Shown here piece after piece: positions 3,356-38,120 of a DNA stretch of 64,000 nucleotides (its first letter is position 1; each line of letters opens with the position of its first letter). The stretch covers positions 62,001 through 126,000 of the forward strand of contig JABDFW010000001.1 of the NCBI GenBank assembly GCA_013286305.1, given 5' to 3'. Made by a program: the position numbers and the translations under genes. The notes beneath the pieces are model-generated. The model saw nothing but the letters and a program-made list of their open reading frames with translations, was not told the DNA's origin and searched no databases. This DNA comes from Bacteroidota bacterium (lineage in GTDB: Bacteria > Bacteroidota > Bacteroidia > Chitinophagales > Chitinophagaceae).

Positions 3356-3579
3356 CAACCCTAAACCCTTAAAAAGTGCAAATTAGAAAAAAAAAAGTGG
3401 TATTAAAAAACGTTTTTCCAAATTTTATTTTTTCATAGGTAAAAAATTTCTTCTTGCGAAAGAAAGTTGCTGTACAAATTAATTATAAATACACAAAAGC
3501 ACTTAAGTGTTGGTATTACATATTACTAAAACTTAATTAAGTGCTGTACCTTTATTTACGGTACGAAAAATCGCCAAAA

Positions 3580-4254
3580 ATGGCTTTACGGGTTGCCATA
3601 AAAAAAATGCTTGCTGTAACTGTAAGTATGTGTGTTTTGCAGTTGGGCGCATACAGCCAGGAAACCGCTGTGCAGGCACAAGGCCTGTACAGCAGTGATT
3701 TTGTTATTGATGGCATACCACGAAATATTACCTTTTATATACCTTCCGGCTTTGGCAAAAAAGACACTTATCCCCTGGTGATATTTTTGCACGAAGAAGG
3801 CGAAAGCAGCAAAGGAGCCCTAAAAAAATACGGAGATAAATTACAACAGCTCGCCGATTCTTCCGCCTCCATTGTTTTATTCCCCGATGCTGTTAAAGGC
3901 CATTGGAACAGCAGAATGGCCAATGCTGCAACCGATACTATTAATGATGTTGGCTTTGTTGATATTATGATTGATTATTTTGTGCAGCAATACCACTGCG
4001 ACCCCGAAAGGGTTTATGCGGCAGGGTTATATAGCGGCGGCGAAATGGCCTGGCGCCTGGGTTGTGACAGGCCGGCAAAAATTGCGGCGATAGCACCATT
4101 TATACCGTCTCAAACCGAGGCTGCTAAAAAATGCACTCCTTCTTCAGGCGTGGCCATTTTCAATACCGAAAAAATCACCCTGCAACCGGGCAAAAAAATT
4201 GCCGGCAGTATCTTAACAGACGCCTGGAACTTTTTGTTAGCGCACAGGAAATAA
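3580..4254 (+). CDS. Secreted PHB-depolymerase/LpqC-like alpha/beta-hydrolase fold protein, probable pseudoenzyme
   Basis: From ATG 3580 the protein has 224 residues with an N-terminal signal peptide. An upstream in-frame GTG at 3541 is possible but less convincing. The LpqC/PHB depolymerase fold is recognisable: YPLVIFLH, then NDVGFVDIMIDYF, then the nucleophile elbow region DPERVYAAGLYSGGEMAWRL. The family elbow is G-x-S-N-G-G; here it is G149-L-Y151-S-G-G, with Tyr where the nucleophilic Ser should be. The oxyanion motif HGG/HGC reads HEEG. The segment that normally carries the acid Asp is missing, and the family HTWPG near the C-terminus is replaced by ITLQPG. The frame is intact, so this looks like a non-catalytic secreted descendant. 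It is convergent with an intact esterase gene. Confidence 0.82.
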   Translation: MALRVAIKKMLAVTVSMCVLQLGAYSQETAVQAQGLYSSDFVIDGIPRNITFYIPSGFGKKDTYPLVIFLHEEGESSKGALKKYGDKLQQLADSSASIVLFPDAVKGHWNSRMANAATDTINDVGFVDIMIDYFVQQYHCDPERVYAAGLYSGGEMAWRLGCDRPAKIAAIAPFIPSQTEAAKKCTPSSGVAIFNTEKITLQPGKKIAGSILTDAWNFLLAHRK

Positions 4255-4391: not shown

Positions 4392-5255
4392 TCAATACTG
4401 GTGAAACCCCTGCGATATAAATGCCAGTACTACCGGAAGCGATTCACGCCAATAAGTCCAGTTATGTGCACCATCGCGAATGCGAAACTCGTGCGGTATC
4501 TCTCTTTTACGCATGGCAATATGCACCAAACAATTGCCTTCATATAAAAAATCATCATCCCCGTCATCAATATACCAGCGCACAGATTTTTTAAGGCTGT
4601 CAGGCATATTGTTTACAAGGGATACTACATTCTGGTCTTTAAAATATTTTTCTACCAGGGTGTCAGCAATGCCAGGGGTTTCTTTTTGTAAACGTGTTTT
4701 CGCTTCATCAAGGGTCGCAGGGCCTGTTGCTGCGCTTAAAGGGCATGCAGAAGAAAACAATTCAGGGTGGTGCAGGGCATAAGTAAATGTTCCGCCGCCG
4801 CCCATAGATAATCCGGACACTGCACGGTATCTTTTTTCCGCTTTTATGCGGTACGTTTTTTCAATATATGGCATAAACTCCTGGAAGAAAAAGTCTTCAT
4901 AACGCCATTTGCCTGTAGCATCGTTGCTATAGCCGCGCTTACCTGTATTAGCATCAGGCATAACAATGATCATTGCAGTAGCCGAACCGTCGCTTATTGC
5001 CTTGTCAGTAATGTTTTGTACTTCGCCAAACTGCACCCATCCGGTTTGGTCGTCGCCCGCGCCATGCAGCAGGTATAATACGGGGTAACTGCGTTCAGAA
5101 GTTTCATAACCGGGCGGCAGGTAAACAGCATATTTCCTCTCCATCCCAAGAATTTTACTCTTCATTGAAAGATCATCAAACACTTTGCTTGTTTGGGCCA
5201 TAGCAATTGTGCGGGCCATAATAAATAAAAACATCAGCAGCAACAGTTTTTTCAT
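4392..5255 (-). CDS. Secreted esterase, esterase D / feruloyl-esterase-like
   Basis: The protein has 287 residues from ATG 5255, which starts directly with a signal peptide (MKKLLLLMFLF...AMAQ); the longer frame upstream adds only a non-signal extension. It is an alpha/beta hydrolase of the putative esterase (PF00756) type. LYLLHGAGDD forms the oxyanion region, SGLSMGGGG holds the nucleophile Ser150, Asp residues in YIDDGDDDF (about 233-237) supply the acid, and DGAHNWTYW holds the catalytic His264. The catalytic triad is therefore complete, unlike the neighbouring hydrolase-like gene. Such enzymes deacylate carbohydrate esters in the periplasm or outside the cell. The substrate is not determined. 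Spacing suggests a single-gene transcript. Confidence 0.92.
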   Translation of the reverse strand: MKKLLLLMFLFIMARTIAMAQTSKVFDDLSMKSKILGMERKYAVYLPPGYETSERSYPVLYLLHGAGDDQTGWVQFGEVQNITDKAISDGSATAMIIVMPDANTGKRGYSNDATGKWRYEDFFFQEFMPYIEKTYRIKAEKRYRAVSGLSMGGGGTFTYALHHPELFSSACPLSAATGPATLDEAKTRLQKETPGIADTLVEKYFKDQNVVSLVNNMPDSLKKSVRWYIDDGDDDFLYEGNCLVHIAMRKREIPHEFRIRDGAHNWTYWRESLPVVLAFISQGFHQY

Positions 5256-5394
5256 ATCGCAATTGTTTGTAATAAAGATAGGTGTAAAATAAATAAGTAG
5301 GTTTGTGTACTTAGCTGAATAATCGCTATTTTGCTGTAGTGGCCTGCCCGAATGCACCATTCAGGCGGGCGTCGTACACTTATACAACGGCAAT

Positions 5395-5553
5395 ATGCTG
5401 AGCTTTTTAAAACACATTTCGTCAATGAATACTCTGGCAATAATTTGGCCTGAAAAATTTAAACCTTCCAACGCTCCTGTAGTCGTACATAACGAAATAG
5501 TTATAGTGCAACACCGGGGTGCTATTGCTGGTTTTGAGATTGAGGGATTTTGA
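5395..5553 (+). pseudogene. Possible N-terminal fragment of an SRPBCC (polyketide cyclase-like) gene
   Basis: A 52-codon plus-strand frame opens at ATG 5395. Its middle part (IIWPEKFKPSNAPVVVHNE) resembles, from memory, the first strand region of SRPBCC proteins (pattern WPxxYxPxxxxVxVxNEIxI). The resemblance stops where the tandem repeat array begins near 5530, and the frame then ends inside the first repeat. If the homology is real, repeat expansion or deletion removed the rest of the gene. This is a weak call and a homology search would decide it. Confidence 0.3.
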
Positions 5554-6095
5554 GATTTATATGATGTGTTACTAAAAATCACCCAATCCCAATATCCCGC
5601 AATCAGCAATTGTATTTTTATGGCTGATTTTGAGATTGAGGGATTTTGAGATTTATACGATGCATTTCTTAAAATCACCAGATCCCAATATGCCGCAATC
5701 AGCAATTGTATTTTTATAGCTGATTTTGAGATTGAGGGAATTTTGAGATTTATACGATGCATTTCTTAAAATCACCAGATCCCAATATGCCGCAATCAGC
5801 AATTGTATTTTTATAGCTGATTTTGAGATTGAGGGAATTTTGAGATTTATACGATGCATTTCTTAAAATCACCAGATCCCAATATGCCGCAATCAGCAAT
5901 TGTATTTTTATAGCTGATTTTGAGATTGAGGGATCTGGAGATTTATATAATGCTATTTTAAAAATCACCGAATCCCAATATCCCGCAATCAGCAATTGTA
6001 TTTTTATAGCTGATTTTGAGATTGAGGGATCTGGAGATTTATATAATGCTATTTTAAAAATCACCAAATCACAATATCACTTAATCAGCAATCAC
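5530..6095. repeat. Tandem array, six units of 96/97 bp, degenerate dyad
   Basis: The motif TTTTGAGATTGAGG recurs at 5532, 5628, 5724, 5821, 5918 and 6014, giving spacings of 96, 96, 97, 97 and 96. Each unit opens with a left arm (GCTGATTTTGAGATTGAGGG), then a variable centre, then a right arm ending CCGCAATCAGC. The arms are imperfect inverted repeats, and an AT-rich linker joins units. Units 2-4 are nearly identical while units 1, 5 and 6 differ in the centre, which fits stepwise tandem duplication. The array fills the divergent region between the esterase and the YXWGXW gene. Minus-strand reading frames through it are artefacts of the near-multiple-of-three period. Confidence 0.95.
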
Positions 6096-13502: not shown

Positions 13503-13740
13503 GCTGACCTTGGGATTGCGGGATTTAGAGATTTGAGAGTAAACCCCAATATCACTGAATCTCAAAATCACAAATCAATGGCACGCTGATTTTAGGATTT
13601 CGGAATTTGGAGATTTGAAAATAAATCTCAAAATCACTAAATCTCAAAATCAGAGATCAACAGCATGTTGATTTTGGGATTGCGGAATTTGGAGATTTGA
13701 AATAAATCCCAATATCGCCAAATCTCGAAATCAGAAATCC
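13503..13740. repeat. Tandem array, three units of 82 bp, degenerate dyad
   Basis: The left arm GCTGA(C/T)/GTTGAT starts at 13503, 13585 and 13667, exactly 82 bases apart. Each unit is an imperfect hairpin: a left arm of type GATTTTGGGATTGCGGAATT then GGAGATTT, a short turn, then a right arm ending CCAAATCTCGAAATC or CTAAATCTCAAAATC. The arms share wording with the arrays at 5530-6095 and 33100-33563. The array lies between the end of lysS and the DoxX-like gene. Confidence 0.93.
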
Positions 13741-33099: not shown

Positions 33100-33563
33100 C
33101 CTGCTTGATGAATATTTCTGATTTTGGGATATTCAGATATTGGGATTGTATGGCGAATGCTTTTAATAAAAAAATCACAAGATACCTCAATCACAAAATC
33201 AGCAATCATTAAATCAATATTTCTGATTTGGGGATTTTGAGATATTGGGATTGTATGGCGAATGCTTTTAATAAAAAAATCACAAGATACCTCAATCACA
33301 AAATCAGCAATCATTTAACCGGTATTGCTGATTTGGGGATTTTGAGATATTGGGATTGTATGGCGAATGCTTTTAATAAAAAAATCACAAGATACCTCAA
33401 TCACAAAATCAGCAATCATTTAACCGGTATTGCTGATTTGGGGATTTTGAGATATTGGGATTGTATGGCGAATGCTTTTAATAAAAAAATCACAAGATAC
33501 CTCAATCACAAAATCAGCAATCATTAAATCAATATTTCTGATTTAGGGATTTTGAGATATTGG
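33100..33563. repeat. Tandem array, four near-identical 105-bp units plus a partial
   Basis: TGGCGAATGC recurs at 33151, 33256, 33361 and 33466, exactly 105 bases apart. Each unit has GATTTGGGGATTTTGAGATA, then TTGGGATTGTATGGCGAATG, an A7 run, and CACAAGATACCTCAATCACA followed by AAATCAGCAATCATT. The ends form an imperfect inverted pair (CTGATTT... / ...AAATCAG). The spacer alternates between two versions (TTAAATCAATATTTCTG and TTTAACCGGTATTGCTG). Because 105 is a multiple of three, long repetitive reading frames appear on both strands; they are not genes. It is the most homogeneous of the three arrays, so probably the most recent. Confidence 0.95.
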
Positions 33564-37900: not shown

Positions 37901-38117
37901 ATTTTTAAGTACGATTTACGAAGTTAGAAGTACGATGCACTTTTTTAAGTACGATTTACGAAGTTAGAAGCACGATGCACTTTTTTAAGTACGATTTACG
38001 AAGTTAGAAGTACGATGTGTACTTCCGGCCTCATACATTGTATTTCGTACTTCCAACCTCACACCTCGTATTTCGTACTTCTAACTTCGTACCTCGTACT
38101 TCTAACCTCGTACTTCG
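37901..38117. repeat. Direct plus inverted repeat cluster (GAAGTTAGAAGTACGA family)
   Basis: Three direct units of 40 bp (37901, 37941, 37981) contain AAGTACGATTTACGAAGTTA and GAAGTACGATGCAC. They are followed by several reverse-complement copies (TCGTACTTCTAACTTCGTAC and variants) to 38117. The two halves could form a long cruciform or RNA hairpin at the shared 3' ends of metF and the convergent gene at 38121. A fragment with the same words is read in frame inside cysS at 50041-50075. Confidence 0.92.
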
Positions 38118-38120
38118 TTT

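Follow-up and report, generated by a model that had tools for sequence, protein, structure and literature searches.

A truncated relative of PHB depolymerases

The window, that is the whole 64-kb stretch of DNA that was analysed, contains an open reading frame encoding a putative exported pseudo-esterase (Table 1). An in-frame GTG is present at 3541, upstream of the ATG and, judging from the reading of the sequence, Met10 (3607) may serve as an alternative start, which would bring the length of the leader nearer to that of the shortest orthologues. The Pfam profile PF10503 covers residues 51-171 (profile positions 4-125 of 219; 24.8 bits for a cut-off of 23) and the NCBIfam profile NF050058 residues 48-176 (E 1.5e-24; 86.9 bits, far under its 150-bit cut-off). 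The window protein thus has no more than the N-terminal half of this family. Five orthologues with the same short C-terminus were found, referred to below, together with the window protein, as the short forms. NF050058 was matched by all six at E <= 0.01; PF10503 matched three of the five orthologues, always under its cut-off, and gave no match with the two others. Among solved structures, feruloyl/acetyl xylan esterases and a PHB depolymerase come nearest to it in sequence. Every short form has a comparable leader, and this leader and a pair of cysteines suggest an exported, disulfide-bearing protein.

Table 1. Features of the pseudo-esterase gene; coordinates are those of the window.
Feature	Position	Strand	Basis and remarks
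Pseudo-esterase ORF	3580..4254	+	ATG at 3580, stop ending at 4254 (ORF reading of the window); 224 aa plus stop; profile matches, five orthologues
Putative signal peptide, from residue 1 to about 26-27	3580..3660	+	Basic start, hydrophobic run, AYSQE junction (sequence reading)
Glu72 codon, at the oxyanion-hole Gly of LHG	3793..3795	+	Alignment
Tyr151 codon, at the nucleophile Ser	4030..4032	+	Alignment
Cys162 codon	4063..4065	+	Alignment
Cys185 codon	4132..4134	+	Alignment
Short C-terminal tail (186-224) with the remainder of beta7 and the last helix	4135..4251	+	Alignment; helix 209-221 in the model

The convergent neighbour (4392-5360, minus strand) encodes an esterase of PF00756, another esterase family than that of the pseudo-esterase; its nucleophile motif, GLSMGG, is intact. 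Three tandem arrays were observed in the window, at 5523-6092, 13513-13739 and 33111-33563, with periods of 96/193, 82 and 105 bp respectively; their units have similar phrases in common, such as GATTTTGAGAT or its like. The ORFs listed at 5361-6067 are probably not genes and mostly correspond to the translated first array. Overlapping short tandem repeats with periods of 7 to 40 bp are clustered at 37902-38118.

Loss of the catalytic elements and conservation of the core

Longer homologues (69) were gathered from the fetched best-match loci, a subset of all matches. A regular expression located the Ser of GxSxG in 67 of them; L029 gave no match and the match in L069 does not read as the motif. 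After omission of 14 distant or odd sequences (L022, L024-L031 and L067-L071), the remaining 55 intact relatives were aligned with the six short forms, and all residue counts refer to this alignment.

The nucleophile position (151) is Ser in 55/55 intact relatives and Y/N/Y/G/G/G in the six short forms, none of which has the catalytic Ser of G-x-S-x-G. At the oxyanion position (72), the Gly found in 55/55 intact relatives is replaced by E/A/A/D/D/D, so that the window protein reads LHE where intact relatives have LHG. The acid loop and the GHxWPG segment with its His are deleted in all six short forms, and beta8 is missing along with them; a vestige of beta7 and the last helix are left of the C-terminal part, reading VAIFN and DAWNFLLAHRK, respectively, in the window protein. 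Counted from Cys185, the tail has 33-41 aa in the six short forms versus 112-291 in 54 of the 55 intact relatives, the locus of the remaining one (L012) being cut by a contig end. The window protein lacks about 80 C-terminal residues of the enzymes, a third of their length. Because the five orthologues have the same losses, chance or sequencing error is excluded as their source.

These data bear out the earlier note, which had described an open frame at this place for a hydrolase-fold protein deprived of its catalytic elements, with Tyr151 for the nucleophile Ser and HE for the oxyanion HG. The note was also right that the acid segment is absent, but the GHTWPG motif that it took to be replaced lies in the deleted segment. 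Of the two features whose conservation in orthologues it proposed to test, the shortened C-terminus is kept and Tyr151 is not, since Asn or Gly occupies this position in four of the six short forms and only the absence of Ser is kept.

Core motifs are retained (R48, P55, H71, P102, W109, D123, G149, G153 and the Cys162/Cys185 pair). No short form lacks either cysteine, and among the 55 intact relatives Cys162 is kept in 50 and Cys185 in 49; the two probably form a disulfide inherited from the enzyme ancestor. Asp103 and Asp123 are invariant, and Tyr37, Pro47, Ala104, Ile129, Phe134 and Gln136 are constant across the short clade and vary among the enzymes. His71, invariant in the intact enzymes too, is the only His invariant among the short forms. 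Because there is no other, the classical hydrolase mechanism should not be able to operate in these proteins, and no shared substitute is apparent in the alignment.

Predicted structure of the window protein

An AlphaFold2 model built from three sequences only (pLDDT 75.3, pTM 0.76; 2/5 models above pLDDT 70) has the central sheet of alpha/beta-hydrolases with its flanking helices in canonical order, and lacks the beta8 stretch of the enzymes. In VIA-align, all 1000 aligned chains had Z >= 8 (best 20.2), with S-formylglutathione hydrolases at about 20 and the PHB depolymerase 9byu at 18.4, these matches extending over residues 24-224. Foldseek TM-scores were lower, about 0.5-0.6. The core alpha/beta-hydrolase fold is therefore predicted to be retained, in agreement with the earlier note, which had seen that core strands remain and had called for a structural comparison with PHB depolymerases. 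The G002 orthologue yielded a poor model (pLDDT 61), so that the predicted edge of the sheet after the deletion is tentative.

The short forms are a rare clade of one family

The five orthologues are spread over three genera of a single family, most likely the Chitinophagaceae. Two are from the same genus as the window protein (60 and 51% identity) and three, from G164, G082 and G088, belong to two other genera (37-43% identity). Matches in the family are separated by a wide E-value gap: short forms score 1e-43 or better and correspond to frames of 212-292 aa (292 reflecting an upstream extension), and the next matches start at 3e-27 with about 300 aa or more. In the more careful of two trees, which included 38 intact relatives, the six short forms make up one clade with 100/100 support; a quick tree with 63 intact relatives gave this clade a support of 89.

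The short form is present in 6/394 genomes of the family and is therefore dispensable in most relatives, which speaks against the explanation that we favour below. RodA sequences place five of the six carrier genomes in a subgroup of 91 of the 394 genomes (28 of 101 genera); no RodA was found at E <= 1e-60 in the assembly of the sixth, G000, which contains the window and is about 70% complete. The short form is rare within this subgroup and has therefore been frequently lost, or else passed sideways. Outside the family, a search at E <= 1e-20 in 396 genomes from the order yielded no short form, nor did one at E <= 1e-30 in 395 genomes from the class; both sets are samples of the larger group and overlap earlier samples. 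A contig scan returned nothing beyond the two same-genus orthologues, and the one protein that came up among plasmids, annotated as a PHB depolymerase family esterase, has 34% identity over 43% of the query. The short forms are thus a small lineage-restricted family of bacterial pseudo-esterases. As far as our searches show this family is new, although its kind is already known; among the mostly freely accessible papers that our literature search covered, none described a family of PHB depolymerases in Bacteroidota that lacks the triad.

The short forms are under purifying selection

A codon model on the six-sequence tree gave an omega of 0.14 overall, 0.09 for the core, 0.31 for the tail and 0.18 for the signal region. 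Setting omega to 1 costs 2 delta lnL of 331, 317, 24 and 16, respectively; constraint on the tail is only moderate. Six intact comparators are held more tightly, with an omega of 0.03. In 15/15 pairs of short forms pN (0.26-0.47) is below pS (0.66-0.87). Since pairwise dS is saturated in most pairs, the tree-based omega is the better estimate, yet a rough one given the long branches. The six short forms contain no internal stop where neutral simulation at similar divergence leaves 5-9, and the G082 protein stops a few residues before the end of the profile. With an omega of 0.14 (against 0.03 for intact enzymes) and no stops, the pseudo-esterase is therefore neither a pseudogene nor a fully constrained enzyme: its job has changed.

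Between G164 and G082 the pseudo-esterase changes far faster than its neighbours (dN 0.48 versus 0.02-0.17). In two g80 genomes (L090 9631-10266 and L092 9623-10261), the pseudo-esterases are 46% identical and four neighbour genes 73-98% identical, an unusually quick change for a gene retained in place.

Gene neighbourhoods

The neighbourhood is conserved only within two pairs of genomes, G164/G082 and G001/G088, and therefore indicates no pathway. The G002 orthologue has as a neighbour a minus-strand gene (L094 3640-9429) whose product, of 1929 aa, combines alpha-2-macroglobulin, CarboxypepD_reg-like and TonB plug domains.

Alternative explanations

It is extremely improbable that the short forms are decaying genes whose frames are open by chance. 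Their constraint is indeed relaxed relative to the intact enzymes and their presence is patchy, but the losses are common to five orthologues, omega is far under one in every section and the stops that neutral drift would leave are absent; at 37-60% identity, six very recent and independent decays would be needed, which is implausible. A pseudogene was rejected on the shared losses, the absence of stops and omega. The earlier note would have read a lack of orthologues sharing the changes, with dN/dS near one, as decay, and what was found is the reverse. Persistence of an enzyme whose catalytic residues have migrated or are different is unlikely as well. Some alpha/beta-hydrolases function without Ser (review PMC11878206); His71 and Asp103/Asp123 are invariant, and Ser152 directly follows Tyr151 in the window protein. 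However, only two of the six short forms have Ser at position 152, three having Asn and one Gln, a count on which a shifted Ser152 nucleophile was rejected; the sole invariant His is one that the enzymes also conserve; and all six are devoid of the oxyanion Gly and of the entire acid/His segment. A Tyr nucleophile or another special role of Tyr151 was likewise rejected, given the residues found at this position in the orthologues.

No likelier than a surviving enzyme is a regulatory or stabilising subunit of an intact paralogous esterase. This is a known fate of pseudoenzymes (PMC10211241), and G000 and G088 do encode other homologues; G002, G164 and G082, which are 99-100% complete, have none at E <= 1e-3 with a short-form query or profile, a search that leaves more distant alpha/beta-hydrolases possible as partners. 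With three nearly complete genomes devoid of another detectable homologue, the helper role cannot be general and was rejected as a general explanation. We regard as quite improbable that the protein serves as a structural component of the machinery for envelope elongation, a role suggested by its place beside rodA/PBP2: the short form of G088 ends 334 bp from rodA and that of G001 also points towards rodA, with a GH9 gene between. In both cases the genes are convergent and hence share no operon, rodA is elsewhere in G164, G082 and G002, and no remnant of the short form was seen beside the other rodA loci examined.

The explanation that we consider likely is an exported pseudo-esterase that lost catalysis once, whose remainder is under purifying selection, and whose cleft would bind an extracytoplasmic ligand without hydrolysing it. 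The ancestor would have been a type-1 PHB-depolymerase/feruloyl-esterase-like alpha/beta-hydrolase. Nucleophile, oxyanion hole, acid and histidine would have been lost once, with beta8 and the His loop, in the ancestor of a few Chitinophagaceae genera, and purifying selection has maintained the remaining domain since. Most likely, the opened former substrate cleft would bind a ligand outside the cytoplasm; polymers that bear esters, polysaccharides and partners in the envelope are candidates. Besides the dispensability noted above, the points that weigh against this explanation are a gene neighbourhood that indicates no pathway, evolution much faster than that of the neighbouring genes, the moderate constraint on the tail and the poor model of the G002 orthologue. 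The losses, the common ancestry, the purifying selection and, in a predicted model, the core fold have been shown here. A coherent loss with a retained non-enzymatic role, as the earlier note had supposed, is thus well supported; the binding or structural nature of this role, like export and non-catalysis, we infer.

Comparison with known systems

The N-terminal two thirds of the window protein are homologous to the type-1 short-chain-length PHA depolymerase/PHB depolymerase family esterases (NF050058, TIGR01840, PF10503; structures 8daj and 9byu), with which it has in common a signal peptide, the core fold, the WN and ND-x-x-F motifs and the Cys pair. It differs from them by the absence of Ser, oxyanion Gly, acid and His and by an NCBIfam score under the cut-off. 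A compact protein from this group of esterases is the C-terminal esterase domain of LC-Est1 (3wyd; 191-193 aa), which matched with Z 17.6 over 158 residues and a phmmer E of 1.2e-5; unlike the window pseudo-esterase, it is annotated as an esterase.

Two other bacterial families of triad-less alpha/beta-hydrolases, DUF3530 (PF12048) and DUF687 (PF05095), are described in PMC11878206. In the model given there, DUF3530 is a minimal domain whose cleft is shallow, and its role, too, is only presumed; for DUF687, non-hydrolytic binding is supposed. They are other sequence families, hosted by Pseudomonas and Chlamydia, and the window protein does not match them in Pfam. MPT51/FbpC1 of Mycobacterium tuberculosis is a secreted alpha/beta-hydrolase relative called non-catalytic, with a binding role (Wilson 2004, as cited in PMC4232451). 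It belongs to another branch of the fold than the window protein; the fold search matched antigen 85 chains (Z about 16), and MPT51 is not among the matches listed. MPT51 is not known to have a C-terminal deletion as large as that of the window protein. By analogy with the proposal made for MPT51, non-hydrolytic extracytoplasmic binding would be the best inference for the short forms.

More tentatively, and in our opinion doubtfully, a secreted ester-polymer hydrolase, reduced to a minimal domain when its entire active site and C-terminal third were lost in a single event, may have turned into a receptor or capture protein that is dedicated, outside the cytoplasm, to its former substrate class. 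Plant hormone receptors arose from the same alpha/beta-hydrolase fold, and such a putative bacterial capture protein would be their counterpart. Automatic annotation would label the protein a PHB depolymerase and thereby credit the genome with a polyester degradation that is probably impossible for it. If the binding role is true, the short forms would provide a small, phylogenetically clean case of the passage from enzyme to binding protein in bacteria, with intact relatives available for comparison.
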